Assembly (NCBI GenBank): GCA_902587615.1
Contig: CACILY010000007.1
Coordinates: 1-42,246 of the forward strand
DNA from: an uncultured Prochlorococcus sp.
GTDB taxonomy: Bacteria; Cyanobacteriota; Cyanobacteriia; PCC-6307; Cyanobiaceae
Reading direction: 5' to 3'
DNA: 42,246 bases
The position numbers and the translations under genes were made by a program. A model generated the notes under the pieces. It was not told the origin of the DNA, ran no database searches, and saw only the letters and a program-made list of their open reading frames with translations. Each line of letters starts with the position of its first letter. The stretch's first letter is position 1. This document shows, piece by piece, positions 804 through 41,053 of this stretch.

Positions 804-1892
804 ATGACTATTCCCTCTAATCTACATACAGTACTTGCGCTCGAAACAAGTTGTGACGAGTCAGCAGTCGCTGTAATGGGAATAGATTCAGAAAAAGTCC
901 ATGTTCATTCTAATTATATTTCCTCTCAAATAGACGAGCATGCTCAATGGGGAGGGGTTGTGCCAGAGATTGCTTCTCGAATGCATCTCGAAGTTTTGCC
1001 TTTCTTAGTTAATAAAGCCCTAGAAAAAAGCGGCAAAAGTTTCAATGAAATTGATGCTATTGCTGCAACTGTTGCTCCTGGTTTGACAGGCTCATTATTA
1101 ATAGGGTCAGTTACTGGAAGAACTCTTTCAAGTCTCCATGGCTTGCCTTTCTTAGGGATTCACCATTTAGAAGGTCACCTCGCTTCAGTCTTGCTGGCAG
1201 AACATCCACCTGACCTTCCATATTTAGTTTTATTAGTGAGTGGTGGTCATACTGAATTGATTAAGGTTGATATAAATAGGAAATATTCTCGTCTTGGAAG
1301 AAGTCACGATGATGCTGCAGGAGAGGCTTTTGACAAAGTTGCAAGGTTATTGGGATTAACTTATCCGGGGGGACCGGCTATAGAAAAAATAGCAAAATCA
1401 GGAAATCCCAAAGCTTTCTCTTTACCTAAAGGCAGGATTTCTAATCCTCAAGGAGGTTTTTATCCTTATGATTTTTCTTTTAGTGGGCTTAAGACAGCAA
1501 TGAGGCGTCAAATTGAAACTCTTAAATTAAAAGCAGATATTCTTCCAGTTGAGGATTTGGCAGCAAGTTTTGAAAATGTTGTTGCAGAAGTTCTGGTAGA
1601 AAGAAGTCTCCGTTGTGCTTTGGATCAGGGTCTCAATCGATTGATATTAGTTGGAGGGGTCGCCGCAAACTCTTGTTTAAGAACAATGATGAGCACAGAA
1701 GCGTCCAACAAATCTATAGATGTATATATAGCCCCCAAGGCTTTTTGTACAGATAATGCAGCAATGATAGGCGCAGCTGCTTTATTGCGATTATCATCTG
1801 GAACAAATGCAAGTTCTTTGCAGTTAGGAGTATCTGCTCGCTGGCCATTGTCACAGGCAGATTCTTTCTATAATGAAGTGCCTCCCTTTTAA
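804..1892 (+). CDS. tsaD: tRNA N6-adenosine threonylcarbamoyltransferase (TsaD/Gcp)
   Basis: TsaD transfers the threonylcarbamoyl group to A37 of ANN-decoding tRNAs, working with TsaB, TsaE and TsaC. The 362-residue protein has the Kae1/ASKHA fold signals: [11 protein letters not shown] near the N-terminus (about 11-21), the metal-binding H-x-E-G-H motif at 121-125, SGGHTEL around 146-152, the GEAFDK segment, and a C-terminal [10 protein letters not shown] motif that supplies a further metal ligand. Length is slightly above the usual 335-345. The ATG at 804 lies just downstream of psaF's divergent start. An hli gene follows 33 nt after the stop and may share the transcript. Confidence 0.96.
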
Positions 1893-1925
1893 AGAAAACT
1901 AGTTTTTTATTTGGTTGAGAAAATA

Positions 1926-2108
1926 ATGGAGCATCAATCAGAAAAATTTTCTTCTCAGCTTTCTCAAAAAGTAAGCAAAAGAGAATTGAATTCATGGAGA
2001 AGGGGATTTACTCCTCAAGCCGAGATTTGGAATGGAAGGATGGCTATTATTGGGCTCATTATTTCTATTACTATTGTATTTGGTTCAAATTATTTCATAG
2101 GCAATTAG
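1926..2108 (+). CDS. hli: High-light-inducible protein (HLIP/SCP), one-helix Chl-binding
   Basis: The 60-residue protein carries the chlorophyll a/b-binding motif E-x-x-N-G-R-x-A (E33, N36, R38) at the start of its only transmembrane helix (about 37-56). HLIPs bind chlorophyll and carotenoid and protect photosystems during light or nutrient stress and assembly. The frame opens at a TTG at 1911, but the ATG at 1926 has a GAG about 9 nt upstream and is the better start. It sits 33 nt after tsaD. Which of the many hli genes of the organism it is cannot be told from this sequence, so no number is given. Confidence 0.9.
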   Translation: MEHQSEKFSSQLSQKVSKRELNSWRRGFTPQAEIWNGRMAIIGLIISITIVFGSNYFIGN

Positions 2109-2266
2109 AGTCTATATAAAAGCATTATTTATGGTTAATTGTATTTTAAATGACCTATAATGAAAATGATAGTAAAAATGTTTCTCATAAAAAATTTTTA
2201 CTACTAAGTACTACCTTTTGTAGATATCTTAGTAAGTCAACTTGAAACCTCGATGCGGAATTTTGT

Positions 2267-3469
2267 ATGACGCCTGAGCGTCTTGGCCTTCTTTGGGGAG
2301 TAACCGTTTTCGCAGGAGCGGGCGCAAGATTTTTGTCTATTTTGACAGGATTGCCTGGAGTAGTTTTATTACTTCTTTCAGGATTATTGATAGGACGTTC
2401 GGGGCTCGGGTTAGTAGAACCTCTTGATCTTGGACAAGGCTTGGAAATTATTGTTGGATTATTGGTTAGCTTGGTTTTGTTTGATGGTGGCTTAAATCTT
2501 CGCCTGCCTGGAGAGACTATAAAAGCAATTGTTATAAGAATTTCCGTCATAAGACTTTCGATTTCACTCGCCGCAGGATTATTGGCAGCTCATTGGATGG
2601 CTGGATTGGGCTGGAATGTAGCTGCTGTATATAGCGCAATAGTTTTAGCTACTGGACCAACAGTTATTACACCTTTAGTTAAACAAATTCGCCTTGCTTC
2701 TCCTCTAAGTGATGTTCTCGAAGCGGAAGGACTTGTTTTGGAACCAGTAGGAGCTGTTTTGGCATTGTTGTTATTGGAGCTTTTAGTTGGAGATTTACAT
2801 GGATGGAAGGAGCTAGCCCTTGGATTATTTGCAAGATTGGGAGGAGGAGTCCTTATGGGCTTGATTGTTGGATGGTTGCTGTCTGAATGTTTACGACGTG
2901 TGCCGCCGGACCCAACATTAGGAATTAGGTTGCAATTGACATTGGGGTTTCTTTTTTTAATTTATGGCATTTCTGAGTGGCTACTCCCTGAATCTGGCTT
3001 GCCTGCCTCAGTAGCGGCTGGTTTTGTTGTTGGTAGAAGGCCGTCTATTGATGCAAATGAGTTAGATGAATTAATTAGACAATTGGCTCAATTAGCAGTA
3101 ACAATGCTTTTCCCTTTGCTTGCAGCAGACGTGTCTTGGGGCGAGCTCAGTCCCCTGGGTTGGGGTGGTGTGACATGTGTTCTGTTTTTGATGGTAGTTG
3201 TCCGACCTATAGCCGTTAGTCTCGCAACTATTGGTCTGCCGCTGGATTTCAAGCAGAGAATCTTTCTTAGTTGGCTGGCTCCTAGAGGAATCGTTACAGC
3301 TGCAGTGGCTTCTTTATTCTCCATTCGGCTCGAGCAAGCAGGAGTTCTAGGTGCTGGCCCACTCCAAGGTTTAGTTTTTCTTACGATTTTGATGACTGTT
3401 GGGATTCAAGGCCTCACTGCCCAGCCAATTGCTAAGTTTTTAGGGTTGATAAAAAAAGAGGAAGAATGA
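2267..3469 (+). CDS. Na+/H+ (cation/proton) antiporter, CPA-type membrane protein
   Basis: The 400-residue protein is almost wholly hydrophobic with about 11-13 predicted membrane helices and matches the Na+/H+ exchanger fold: LLLLSGLLIGRSGLG near 35-47, LVLFDGGLNLRL at 69-80, and the paired core segments ATGPTVITP (128-136) and EAEGLVLEP (152-160). It would exchange Na+ or K+ for H+ at the cytoplasmic or thylakoid membrane. In typical NhaP proteins these core segments read like TDPVAV and EGESLLND; here the Asp and Asn-Asp are replaced, as in some cyanobacterial subgroups, so ion choice and stoichiometry cannot be assumed. It ends 11 nt from the convergent gltX stop. Confidence 0.85.
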   Translation: MTPERLGLLWGVTVFAGAGARFLSILTGLPGVVLLLLSGLLIGRSGLGLVEPLDLGQGLEIIVGLLVSLVLFDGGLNLRLPGETIKAIVIRISVIRLSISLAAGLLAAHWMAGLGWNVAAVYSAIVLATGPTVITPLVKQIRLASPLSDVLEAEGLVLEPVGAVLALLLLELLVGDLHGWKELALGLFARLGGGVLMGLIVGWLLSECLRRVPPDPTLGIRLQLTLGFLFLIYGISEWLLPESGLPASVAAGFVVGRRPSIDANELDELIRQLAQLAVTMLFPLLAADVSWGELSPLGWGGVTCVLFLMVVVRPIAVSLATIGLPLDFKQRIFLSWLAPRGIVTAAVASLFSIRLEQAGVLGAGPLQGLVFLTILMTVGIQGLTAQPIAKFLGLIKKEEE

Positions 3470-37067: not shown

Positions 37068-37091
37068 AGTCTTACAATGGCAAGACTTTTT
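37068..37091 (+). terminator. Short hairpin with T-run upstream of second ppa
   Basis: AGTCTT (37068-37073) pairs with AAGACT (37082-37087) around an 8-nt loop, followed by T to 37091. It is 40 nt before the ATG at 37132. It could end the HTH-gene transcript or act as a leader element; the stem is short. The rest of the spacer 36909-37131 holds nothing else clear. Confidence 0.4.
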
Positions 37092-37131
37092 GCCTGACAA
37101 ACTATACCCCTTTCTTTCTTATAGGCTTCTG

Positions 37132-37647
37132 ATGGATCTTAGCTCTCTTTTACCATCTCCTTCGAAAGGTTTAGTCAACTTAGTGGTTGAGATTCCTGCT
37201 GGAAGCAGAAATAAATATGAATATTTTGCAGGTGCTGGTGTAATGGCTCTGGATAGAGTTTTACATTCTTCTGTTAGATACCCATTTGATTATGGCTTCA
37301 TCCCCAACACGCTTGCAGAGGATGGGGCTCCTTTAGATGCAATGGTAATAATGGAGGAACCTACTTTCGCTGGATGTTTGATTAAAGCCAGACCTATTGG
37401 AATCCTTGACATGCATGACTCAGGTGCATATGACGGTAAATTATTGTGCGTTCCTGTTGCAGACCCGCGTCAAAAAGAAATAACAAGCATTAATCAAATA
37501 GCTCAAAGTCAATTAGAAGATGTAGCAGAATTTTTTAGAACATATAAAAGTTTAGAAGGCCGAGTAATTGTTATAGACGGTTGGAGGGATAGCATTTTTG
37601 TTGAAGGTTTGCTTAAAAAGTGTATTGCAGCAAATAAAGATAAGTAA
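37132..37647 (+). CDS. Second family I inorganic pyrophosphatase, catalytic Asp replaced by Ala
   Basis: A 171-residue protein from the ATG at 37132 (MDLSSLLPSPSKGLVNLVVE). Almost all E. coli Ppa active-site positions are present: E20, K28, E30, R42, Y54, D64, D69, D96, D101, K103 and Y138-K139. The D-G-D-P motif, however, reads D64-G-A66-P: the residue matching E. coli Asp67, a metal ligand involved in activating water, is Ala. The GCT codon (37327-37329) is clear. Activity may be reduced, altered or lost. An upstream TTG at 37090 is in frame but the Met start fits cyanobacterial homologues better. A complete PPase is encoded at 21995. Confidence 0.9.
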   Translation: MDLSSLLPSPSKGLVNLVVEIPAGSRNKYEYFAGAGVMALDRVLHSSVRYPFDYGFIPNTLAEDGAPLDAMVIMEEPTFAGCLIKARPIGILDMHDSGAYDGKLLCVPVADPRQKEITSINQIAQSQLEDVAEFFRTYKSLEGRVIVIDGWRDSIFVEGLLKKCIAANKDK

Positions 37648-37758: not shown

Positions 37759-38475
37759 GTGAATCAGAAAAATAAAAGAAATAATAAAAATTTTTTGGAC
37801 CAAGGTGAAAGATCCAGTTGTAACTTAGATATCCTTTGGGACTTTTGGGCACCATTCTTCCTCACAATTTTGTTATATGTGGGGATAAGGAATTATGTCG
37901 CGGAGGCTAGATATATTCCATCAGGTTCAATGCTTCCTGGGTTGCAAGTTAATGATCGACTTTTGATTGAGAAATTTACTTTTAGAAGAAGAACTCCAAA
38001 GAGAGGAGAGATAGTGGTATTTAATTCTCCTAGTTCATTTGATAAAGAGTTATTGTCTCGACGACAACAAGAAGTTCCTTCATCATTTAAATGTGCACTA
38101 CTGACCTTCCCTTTGATTAGTTTCCTTCCAGATATCGTTGATCCAGCATGTGAGGCCTATATTAAACGTGTAGTAGCGATACAGGGTGACAAAATAATTG
38201 TAGATGTAAAAGGTAGAGTTTTTGTTAATGGCGAGTTGGTAAAAGAACCTTATGTTGAAAATTATTGTCAGCCTGATTTGAATGGGTTTAGTAATTGCAG
38301 GGGTTTACGTAATATCGTTCCTCCTGACCATGTATTGGTTTTAGGTGATAACAGAGCCAATAGTTGGGACAGCAGGTTTTGGCCAGGGGGACCTTTTTTA
38401 CCACATAAGTCAATTTTAGGTAGAGCTGTTTGGAGGTTTTGGCCAATTAATCGTATTGGTGGACTTAATCTTTAA
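37759..38475 (+). CDS. lepB: Signal peptidase I
   Basis: A 238-residue membrane protease that cleaves secretory and thylakoid-lumen signal peptides. One N-terminal membrane helix (about 29-46) is followed by the catalytic Ser57 in IPSGSMLP and the general base Lys136 in YIKRVVAI; VLGDNRANSWDSRFWPGG near the C-terminus is the box E signature. Between residues about 92 and 128 there is an insertion with a hydrophobic stretch (ALLTFPLISFLPDIV) not found in the shortest homologues. The start codon is GTG. Its 3' end overlaps the convergent dihydroorotase-like gene by 11 nt. Confidence 0.93.
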   Translation: MNQKNKRNNKNFLDQGERSSCNLDILWDFWAPFFLTILLYVGIRNYVAEARYIPSGSMLPGLQVNDRLLIEKFTFRRRTPKRGEIVVFNSPSSFDKELLSRRQQEVPSSFKCALLTFPLISFLPDIVDPACEAYIKRVVAIQGDKIIVDVKGRVFVNGELVKEPYVENYCQPDLNGFSNCRGLRNIVPPDHVLVLGDNRANSWDSRFWPGGPFLPHKSILGRAVWRFWPINRIGGLNL

Positions 38476-39721
38476 GACCACAATCCACTATTTGCCCTAT
38501 GATTTCACTTCCTTCGAATGGTTGATTAGCGGAATAGGGGAAACTTTTTTTTGTGATTGTGTGAATCCAGCGCTTATTAGGATCAAAAAGTAGCCATCTA
38601 TTGCTATTTATATTCAAACTTTCTTCTGGTAGGTTTAGAAACCTTGAAGGTCCAAAACTCAAGGCTTCCCAAAGCTCCTTTACACTCCAGTTAGATTTAA
38701 TCACAAGCTCTTGCCAGAGTAAGGGTAGTACAAGTTTATATCCATTTAGTCCAGGCAATCTATGAGCAGAAGGTTGCTTGATTTCTGCCTCATCGAGTGC
38801 AATTGAATTGACGGCAATGGCAGTTAAGGTTCCTTTCTTTAGACCCTTAATTAATTCCTTCCTATCACTTGGACTTCCAATAGAAGGCGTAACGCGCCAC
38901 CCAATTTCATAAGGTGCAAGATTAGAGCTGTCAGCAATCAGATGCCACCAACCAACACTTGCCATGGTTGCTGTTGTACTTTTAGAAAGAATTGACACAC
39001 CTGCCGCTGTAGACATATTCATTATTCTTACTGATACATCGGGATGACACCTATGTAACTCAAGTAGTTGGTATAGAGGTAGTGTTTCACTTTCGACGGG
39101 ATCAGGTAACCATCCAGCTCGTAGTGTTTCGACACTTTCTCTAACAAGACCTCCTCCTTGAATTTCTAAATCTCTTGGAGCTAATAGAAGAGGAGCATTT
39201 CCAATCTCCCCTATTAGTAATGCTTTCTTAAGAAGATTAGTAGGTATTAATGAATTATCCGCTGATAACCCAATCGCTCCATTTTTTAGAATATCTGCAT
39301 GGGCTGATAAGTCTTTGTTTTGCCCCCCTACGGTCAAGCTACCCCAGAAATGAATTAACAATTCATTTGTAGAAGAGATGTTCTGATGGAATTGCTCAGG
39401 ACTATCTCGCCATAATCTACTTTTTGGTAGTAAAGCTACTTGACCGTAACCAGCATTTGTAGCATTTGTCTTTAGACTTTGAAGAGTTTCATTCTTTCCA
39501 ATTATTGGATCCTCCAGGGTGGAGTGTGGATCAACTAAACAAGGTGCTAAAAGCTTTTCTTCTGCTGAAGTTTTTTGAACATTTAGCTTTTGTGCTAATT
39601 GACGTGCCTCTTCTCCAAACGCTTTTATATTTCCATCAATTATTAATACAGCATCTTTATCTAGGGACTGATTTGATCCATAAAGAATCTGGACTGGGTC
39701 TAATAGATATGTCTGAAACAT
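38465..39721 (-). CDS. Dihydroorotase-like protein, predicted catalytically inactive
   Basis: A 418-residue amidohydrolase-fold protein that aligns with class I dihydroorotase, the third step of pyrimidine synthesis. The key residues are lost: the D-x-H-x-H-x-R motif reads D64-P-H66-S-T68-L-E70, the HVST motif reads N235-M-S-T, and T-D-H-A-P-H reads V304-N-S-I-A-L. H260 in WWHL and the AAGV segment keep the alignment certain. This resembles pseudo-dihydroorotases (PyrC', PyrX) that scaffold aspartate transcarbamoylase. It starts at 39721, directly after the phosphatase gene, whose stop codon ends at 39722, and is probably co-transcribed with it. Confidence 0.82.
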   Translation of the reverse strand: MFQTYLLDPVQILYGSNQSLDKDAVLIIDGNIKAFGEEARQLAQKLNVQKTSAEEKLLAPCLVDPHSTLEDPIIGKNETLQSLKTNATNAGYGQVALLPKSRLWRDSPEQFHQNISSTNELLIHFWGSLTVGGQNKDLSAHADILKNGAIGLSADNSLIPTNLLKKALLIGEIGNAPLLLAPRDLEIQGGGLVRESVETLRAGWLPDPVESETLPLYQLLELHRCHPDVSVRIMNMSTAAGVSILSKSTTATMASVGWWHLIADSSNLAPYEIGWRVTPSIGSPSDRKELIKGLKKGTLTAIAVNSIALDEAEIKQPSAHRLPGLNGYKLVLPLLWQELVIKSNWSVKELWEALSFGPSRFLNLPEESLNINSNRWLLFDPNKRWIHTITKKSFPYSANQPFEGSEIIGQIVDCGLKD

Positions 39722-41053
39722 CTAGAGCGCTCCTGAAGCTGTATCGTCAAAGACACCTCCTAAATGAGAGGTGATGTTTAGGCAGCTGATTATATTTGGT
39801 TGATTTGGATCTTCAGTGATATCAACAATACTAATACCACCATTGCCTTGTTTTACCATCCAAATATCAGCTGGCGTTAATCCAAGGAGATTACAAAGAA
39901 TTGTTTTGTTTACAGCATCATGAGCTACAACAAGAGCTGTCTCATCGGGCTTAAGGCTTTTTATGATTTTCCTCCAACAATTTAGGGCTCTTGACGACAC
40001 GTCTTGAATGCTTTCACCTTGTGGCATTCGAATAGTTTCTGGTGAAGATTTCCAGCTTGCTAAAAGAGTTGGCCAGTGTTCGTTGATTTCTGAATCTAGT
40101 TTCCCTTCCCACTCCCCATGACCAATCTCGATGAGATCTTCTTGTAATTCCATCTTTATGCCAGGATGGTTCTTTAATATAATTTCTCCTGTTTCCTTGG
40201 GACGTGACATTGAACTGCTAAAAGCTTTCTGAATAGGTACATCTTTTAGAAATTCACTTGCAGCTCTGGCTTGCTTCTTGCCAGTTTCATTTAAGGGGAT
40301 ATCTATTTGTCCTTGGAAACGTCCTTCTAAGTTCCAATCAGTTTCTCCATGACGAACAAGTAATAACCTACTGCTTCTTTTCTTTTTTGGAATGATTGGC
40401 GTTAGATGAGTTGTGCTATTTAGGCATTCAATTTGTATCTCATGTGAATTTTCTTTTGTTGAATTTAAATTAATAATTGATATTGATGCATTGTCGAGTT
40501 GCAGTCTCCTGAAACCAAGTGGAGGGTTTCTTAAAAGCCGGAGAATGACGCACCGCAGTATTGCGTTGTGACCCACAATTAATATGGTTGGTTCTACTTC
40601 TGTCGAATGTCGTTCTATTAGATTTTTCAAGAAATAATCAGATTGCTTGATCAGTTCTTTTATGGGGTTATATGAACTTCCACCTTCTCTTGTCATTATC
40701 AGTGATTTTGGTTCTTGCTTCCAAGTCTTATATTCTTTAGGGTATTTGGATTCAACTTCTTCTTGAGTGAGCCCACTCCAGTGCCCTAGATCAACTTCTA
40801 ATAATTCATTTGTAAAAATAGGTGTGATTTCTTTGTTTTGCTGCTTAAGAATATTCTTTGTGGTCTCTTTAGCTCTTTGCAGTGGTGAGCTATAAGCATG
40901 ATTAATAGACACTTCATTTAATCTTTTCCCAGTTGAAATCGCTTGAGAGACCCCCTCCTCACTAAGAATAGAAAGATCACTCCGCCCTTGAATTCGAAGT
41001 TCTTTATTGAAGCTACTTAAACCATGACGAACTAGAAGAAGACGCATTGTCAT
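39722..41053 (-). CDS. Tandem histidine-phosphatase (phosphoglycerate-mutase-like) protein
   Basis: A 443-residue protein made of two histidine-phosphatase domains. Domain 1 (about 1-205) has LLLVRHGLSSFN at 5-16, SSPLQRAKET, the acidic ELLEVDLGHW and LIVGHNAILR. Domain 2 (about 225-430) has LLLVRHGETDWN, SSSMSRPKET, DLIEIGHGEW and LVVAHDAVNK. Both copies keep the RHG nucleophile and the distal His, so both could be active. Cyanobacterial relatives act as metal-independent phosphoserine phosphatases; sugar phosphatase is an alternative. The start may be ATG 41053 or the next ATG at 41047. It precedes the dihydroorotase-like gene with no spacer. Confidence 0.9.
   Translation of the reverse strand: MTMRLLLVRHGLSSFNKELRIQGRSDLSILSEEGVSQAISTGKRLNEVSINHAYSSPLQRAKETTKNILKQQNKEITPIFTNELLEVDLGHWSGLTQEEVESKYPKEYKTWKQEPKSLIMTREGGSSYNPIKELIKQSDYFLKNLIERHSTEVEPTILIVGHNAILRCVILRLLRNPPLGFRRLQLDNASISIINLNSTKENSHEIQIECLNSTTHLTPIIPKKKRSSRLLLVRHGETDWNLEGRFQGQIDIPLNETGKKQARAASEFLKDVPIQKAFSSSMSRPKETGEIILKNHPGIKMELQEDLIEIGHGEWEGKLDSEINEHWPTLLASWKSSPETIRMPQGESIQDVSSRALNCWRKIIKSLKPDETALVVAHDAVNKTILCNLLGLTPADIWMVKQGNGGISIVDITEDPNQPNIISCLNITSHLGGVFDDTASGAL

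Follow-up and report, generated by a model that had tools for sequence, protein, structure and literature searches.

Introduction

The closest described counterparts of the protein studied here are PyrC' and PyrX, the DHOase-like subunits of class A2 aspartate transcarbamoylases (ATCases) in Pseudomonas and Sinorhizobium. Class A2 enzymes are 6+6 dodecamers in which PyrB depends on this subunit for its assembly and activity. In Pseudomonas the inactive dihydroorotase (DHOase)-like subunit PyrC' is needed by the ATCase PyrB, according to the accessible text of PMC7053772. In Sinorhizobium the gene smc01361 lies beside pyrB and was proposed to encode PyrX, and its disruption led to pyrimidine auxotrophy (PMC5929573, accessible part). 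A DHOase-like domain without zinc ligands has also been retained in fungal Ura2, where it is part of a fused CPSase-ATCase chain (PMC7053772, accessible text), whereas the cyanobacterial protein is free-standing. The type I DHOase of Aquifex aeolicus in its complex with ATCase (3d6n) has the same fold and keeps the zinc site that the cyanobacterial protein described here has lost.

This protein, a pseudo-dihydroorotase (pseudo-DHOase), shares with PyrC' and PyrX a type I DHOase fold that lacks the zinc site, the presence of a second DHOase in the genome (here a type II PyrC, predicted to be active from its motifs), a PyrI that was not found and, when the active-site columns are left out, the side of the tree. 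It differs from them in that its gene lies with a histidine phosphatase gene and lepB and not with pyrB (a linkage that is typical of PyrC' and PyrX but does not strictly define them), in the subset of residues that was lost, and in the ancestry of the candidate partner PyrB. The pseudo-DHOase is of a kind already known; new is a class-wide cyanobacterial form that is annotated as dihydroorotase. A search by title and abstract, with most subscription journals outside its range, did not bring up any publication that deals with a pseudo-DHOase of cyanobacteria.

The gene and its protein

The window, i.e. the whole stretch of 42,246 nucleotides that was analysed, is contig C7 of a cyanobacterial genome (1.10 Mb in 59 contigs, 59.5% complete) with Cyanobium, Aphanothece and Synechococcus among its named relatives. 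The pseudo-DHOase gene extends from position 38465 to 39721 on the minus strand. It starts with ATG and has 418 codons with no internal stop, so the unbroken frame of the original prediction was confirmed. Its assignment combines the open reading frame, the matches to NF005614 and TIGR00857, a structure model, fold matches and a count of the zinc ligands. Directly upstream on the same strand lies a gene for a two-domain histidine phosphatase of the phosphoglycerate-mutase-like type (PGM; 39722 to 41053, minus strand), both domains of which were matched by PF00300 in two stretches, and its stop codon ends 0 bp before the pseudo-DHOase ATG. At the other end, the signal peptidase I gene lepB (37759 to 38475, plus strand) is convergent with the pseudo-DHOase gene and overlaps its 3' end by 11 bp. 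The inorganic pyrophosphatase gene ppa (37090 to 37647, plus strand) belongs to the same syntenic block, which marks the empty site in the genomes where the gene is missing.

The best model for the protein was NF005614 (NCBIfam, PRK07369), named dihydroorotase, with 269 bits and an E value of 5e-80. This score lies below the curated equivalog cut-off of 456 bits, which was passed by the copies of 89 of the 90 other sampled Cyanobacteriia; the copies of the family to which the window genome belongs score below it. TIGR00857 was matched with 145 bits (E 3.3e-42) and the structure 3gri by sequence with an E value of 6.5e-17; no Pfam model matched the protein at E 0.001. An AlphaFold2 model computed from 78 sequences had a mean pLDDT of 93.6 and a pTM of 0.93. 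The predicted structure aligned with the Thermus DHOase 2z00 over the whole chain (Z 47.0) and with the A. aeolicus DHOase 3d6n over 408 residues (Z 45.2), and its best Foldseek match had an E value of 2.5e-32. The full-length homology of the protein to type I DHOase, in sequence and fold, is certain.

Loss of the active site

The zinc ligands of the A. aeolicus enzyme are His61, His63, Asp153, His180, His232 and Asp305 (PMC3880350, accessible text). The corresponding residues were read on an alignment of 124 loci. For the substrate-binding and catalytic positions we took Arg65, Asn95 and His309 in the A. aeolicus numbering. The window protein keeps D64 and H66, and the latter (codon 39524 to 39526; this and all following codons on the minus strand) corresponds to His61 and is the sole unambiguous zinc ligand left. 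The original prediction had noticed that the His and Arg beyond D64/H66 in the first motif, the His of HVST and the Asp-His of TDHAPH were replaced. The alignment bears this out: Thr68 (39518 to 39520) is found in place of His63, Glu70 (39512 to 39514) in place of the substrate Arg, Asn235 (39017 to 39019) at the position of the HVST ligand His232, and Asn305 (38807 to 38809) with Ser306 for the pair that begins with Asp305. Two further losses had escaped it, the ligand His180, now Ala181 (39179 to 39181), and the Asn of the PNT motif, now Lys100 (39422 to 39424). The second His of DHAPH is replaced by Leu309 (38795 to 38797). The equivalent of Asp153 is ambiguous, being A154 or D155 depending on the placement of a gap, and was left out of the count of five ligands. 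The window protein keeps one of these five and none of the three substrate residues and, to judge by its sequence, its catalytic apparatus is gone.

The loss is not an oddity of one genome, as the original prediction had implied, but is fixed throughout the class. All 98 aligned rows of Cyanobacteriia keep at most two of the five unambiguous ligands, and the original residue was found in none of them at the positions of His181, His235 and Arg70. Among the 48 family rows (47 distinct sequences) one ligand is kept in 45, two in 2 and none in 1; HxH is present in the rows L043 and L044. In the 50 rows of other Cyanobacteriia, counted without the split copy L113, two ligands are kept in 39, one in 10 and none in 1. 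Asp305 is present in 49 and His68 in 38 of these 50, and the family has lost Asp305 too. In contrast, each of the 11 rows from the sister lineages f43 and f50 outside the class has the full set of five ligands and three substrate residues. A lineage-specific decay of a working enzyme was rejected, since every aligned copy of the Cyanobacteriia is degenerate. At position 235 the family rows have Asn (98%), the other Cyanobacteriia Arg (98%) and the active rows used His (8 of 8). The former ligand positions have been fixed anew and are near-invariant rather than random.

The missing zinc residues are no proof of inactivity, because a Zur-regulated PyrC paralogue without them was reported to be active (PMC2770081, accessible text). 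The protein might have retained some DHOase activity with fewer or other metals, or might catalyse a new, metal-independent reaction on the same fold, and the Asp305 and His68 residues kept outside the family would agree with this. We consider such an activity improbable, as His181, His235 and Arg70 are gone in every row and Asp305 is gone in the family as well; the other dihydroorotases of these genomes also bear on it.

A second dihydroorotase

The window genome has a type II PyrC of 357 aa on contig C4 (L002, positions 1450 to 2523, plus strand). It matched TIGR00856 with 435.6 bits against a cut-off of 293, and its motifs DWHLHLRD, TITPHH and GTDSAPH are intact. The absence of any other pyrC would have refuted the original prediction, but such a gene is present, and the possibility that the pseudo-DHOase is of necessity the working PyrC of the window genome was rejected. 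Type II PyrC was found in all 24 sampled family genomes, which argues further against a remaining activity. In the other 90 Cyanobacteriia, the PRK07575 type of DHOase occurs without type II in 71 genomes and type II without PRK07575 in 17; one genome has both (G240, where the PRK07575 match is partial) and one has neither (G181). Type II PyrC, present in 24 of 24 family genomes and in 18 of the 90 others, and the PRK07575 type are nearly exclusive of each other. We take this pattern to mean that one DHOase has repeatedly been exchanged for another, the PRK07575 proteins being assumed to be active dihydroorotases.

The genome with neither type, G181, encodes a pseudo-DHOase (L349, contig C87) and has no match above the cut-offs of the PRK07575 and type II models. 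This would favour an activity of the pseudo-DHOase, but the assembly is a draft of 170 contigs and the copy in question is itself degenerate.

Partial or interrupted PRK07575 remnants adjoin the pseudo-DHOase gene at L052, L058 and L350 (genomes G115, G240 and G229), and a PRK07575 frame adjoins it at L043, L069, L084 and L112. These frames and remnants point to an old cluster in the order PGM - pseudo-DHOase - lepB - DHOase. The PRK07575-type proteins of L115 to L120 have QxH for HxH in 6 of 6 rows, with the other ligands kept.

An ancient pseudoenzyme under constraint

The distribution of the gene was followed in a phylum sample of 244 genomes. NF005614 was matched in 151 of them, namely in 17 of 24 genomes of the family, in 90 of 90 other Cyanobacteriia and in 44 genomes outside the class. 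The pseudo-DHOase has thus been retained in 107 of the 114 sampled Cyanobacteriia. In a set of 60 relatives 56 matched the model, one of them by a piece of 28 residues only. In the phylum sample, seven family genomes had no match, and all of them are members of the genus g17. At their loci (L342 to L348) every gene of the block orf36447-ppa-lepB-PGM is in place, only the pseudo-DHOase gene between lepB and PGM is absent, and tblastn detected no trace of it at E 0.1. In all seven genomes the loss is a clean deletion from a conserved synteny. The g17 genome G259 still has a copy, which lies on a very long branch.

The original prediction had suggested dN/dS as a measure of constraint. In pairwise comparisons (NG86) it was about 0.09 to 0.38 in all the pseudo-DHOase pairs listed, one identical pair apart, showing that the gene evolves by purifying selection. 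A functionless relic in slow decay could account for the fast evolution, in which the family stem measures 1.68 changes per site and makes up 13.5% of the tree (7.2 to 10.1% in the trees of ArgF, PyrG, TrpB, PyrB and PGM), and likewise for the long G259 branch, the loss in seven genomes and a frame-split copy in G119. The open frame, dN/dS values clearly below 1 for all diverged pairs listed, the retention throughout most of the class and residues that hardly vary where the active site used to be all speak against such a relic, which we regard as very improbable. Taken together, the pseudoenzyme is ancient and class-wide.

The copy of G119 (L113) is split into two overlapping frames and is one frame in the sister genome G057 (L093); it is either a broken gene or a sequencing error.

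Descent of the pseudo-DHOase

In a first tree of 79 rows, a branch with a support of 100/99 split the copies of the family and of the other Cyanobacteriia from every enzyme that is active or looks active. It is well supported that the pseudoenzyme arose once, either within the Cyanobacteriia or before them. When the active-site columns were removed (second tree, 42 rows), the cyanobacterial copies were found on the side of seven proteobacterial PyrX-type proteins with 86/94. This split was present in 861 of 1000 bootstrap trees, and in 936 when a long Acinetobacter row was ignored. Two rival topologies were not rejected, one that placed the cyanobacterial copies with the f50/f43 enzymes (p-AU 0.109) and another with a p-AU of 0.18.

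The PyrX proteins and the cyanobacterial copies have lost different subsets, and the changes Asn to Asp in PNT and Arg to Gly (GEPG) are frequent, not universal, in both. At the Asp153 motif, the deletion of one residue was rejected as a common trait, since PyrX has the same length there as the active enzymes. A common descent of the pseudo-DHOase and PyrX is only suggested.

In the PyrB tree the cyanobacterial PyrB is sister to that of f50 (100/99). A union of the cyanobacterial with the PyrX-linked PyrB had a p-AU of 0.002, and the inheritance of PyrB and PyrX as a pair from proteobacteria was rejected.

Candidate partners

In 47 of 48 family rows the pseudo-DHOase is preceded by the PGM-like gene in the same orientation, and the one row that lacks it, L018, begins at a contig end. 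Within the available flanks, 33 of the 50 rows from other Cyanobacteriia show this arrangement too. The gene lepB adjoins the pseudo-DHOase gene in 47 of the 48 rows of the family. The pyrB gene of the window genome is located on a different contig (C3), and among the cyanobacterial loci that were read no pseudo-DHOase gene was seen beside pyrB. The intact f43 homologues often adjoin pyrB (for example in genomes G241, G270, G210, G280 and G218). In f50 the intact DHOase gene and pyrB lie on separate contigs. Because its neighbours are PGM and lepB, while several f43 homologues adjoin pyrB, the cyanobacterial gene has either left a pyrB context or was never in one.

This neighbourhood would suggest that the pseudo-DHOase is a non-catalytic partner or a metabolite-sensing regulator of the upstream histidine phosphatase, with a remodelled pocket that binds a small ligand and with no involvement of PyrB. 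The distance between the two genes, 0 to 10 bp in most family rows, and the newly fixed pocket residues are in line with this, whereas in many other families the two genes are separated by tens or even hundreds of bases. In addition, the PGM gene stays in place in the seven genomes after the clean loss of its neighbour. We think a phosphatase partner unlikely, also in view of the conserved sites counted below.

The covariation of evolutionary rates was analysed for six proteins in 25 genomes. The pseudo-DHOase gave 0.52 with PyrB, the first of the 15 pairs, and 0.50 with PGM. When HisD was added, the values were 0.45 for PyrB, 0.41 for the unrelated HisD and 0.35 for PGM, i.e. several partners were similar. 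Over 105 bootstraps the top partner was PGM in 45, PyrB in 28 and HisD in 22. The range of 0.35 to 0.50 for PGM is compatible with a phosphatase partner, and PyrB is not singled out.

We then counted the sites that are conserved elsewhere and in G259 and are changed only where the gene was lost. The loss genomes were seven for PyrB, PGM and lepB and three each for ArgF, PyrG, TrpB and HisD. In PyrB 5 of 121 otherwise conserved sites were changed, compared to 0 of 78 in PGM, which counts against the phosphatase as partner, 0 of 59 in lepB (family only), 0 of 108 in ArgF, 0 of 297 in PyrG, 2 of 238 in TrpB and 1 of 154 in HisD. For 5/121 versus 3/797 (ArgF, PyrG, TrpB and HisD, without PGM and lepB) the Fisher p was 0.0015 in a post hoc comparison of one loss event. 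When the comparison was confined to the family, the contrast was weaker (PyrB 4/143, PGM 1/135, ArgF 0/126, PyrG 0/369, TrpB 4/281, HisD 1/175). The changes were mostly conservative.

The retired enzyme has probably been kept as a partner with a structural or regulatory task. Our best single guess, held tentatively and at somewhat less than even chances, is that the pseudo-DHOase is a non-catalytic partner of PyrB. This would be consistent with its PyrC'-like anatomy, with the extra changes of PyrB where the gene was lost and with PyrI, which was found in 0 of the 244 genomes of the phylum sample. On the other side stand the PGM neighbour in place of pyrB, a PyrB ancestry unlike that of the PyrX systems, the separate DHOase and pyrB genes of f50 and the seven genomes that have PyrB without the gene; PyrB was found in 24 of 24 family genomes. 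The role with ATCase that the original prediction had proposed is thus plausible by analogy to PyrC' and PyrX, with a weak hint from the 5 changed sites in PyrB, but it is not borne out by the gene neighbours, the PyrB tree or the rate covariation.

As a partner of PyrB, the protein may have had the following history. The type I DHOase of the ancestor was probably linked to PyrB. Its chemistry would have passed to another DHOase, of type II or PRK07575-like, and only a binding role would have remained for the older protein. The presumably catalytically dead form arose before the sampled Cyanobacteriia radiated and has been kept since; bound to PyrB as a subunit without catalysis, it would stabilise or tune this enzyme like PyrC' or PyrX. 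In the lineage of the loss PyrB would have become self-sufficient. A bolder version is that the dead pocket was rebuilt, with Arg for His232 (Asn in the family), so as to sense metabolites or serve for docking, and that it couples PGM or the carbon state to pyrimidine synthesis via PyrB, making the protein a general regulatory subunit with a single origin at the base of the Cyanobacteriia. This we consider distinctly unlikely.

If the pseudo-DHOase is a PyrB partner, a control of pyrimidine synthesis of the PyrC' type would extend to the oxygenic photosynthetic bacteria, and the genus g17 would offer a natural deletion, with a PyrB that has come to work independently. NF005614 is the best model of the window protein and is named dihydroorotase, yet most catalytic residues are absent in 98 of 98 copies, and for this reason the NCBIfam name can misassign the third step of pyrimidine synthesis in pathway annotations and metabolic models of cyanobacteria.

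A difference was also seen in PyrB itself, which reads STRTK in the seven g17 genomes without the gene and STRTR in the family members that keep it.
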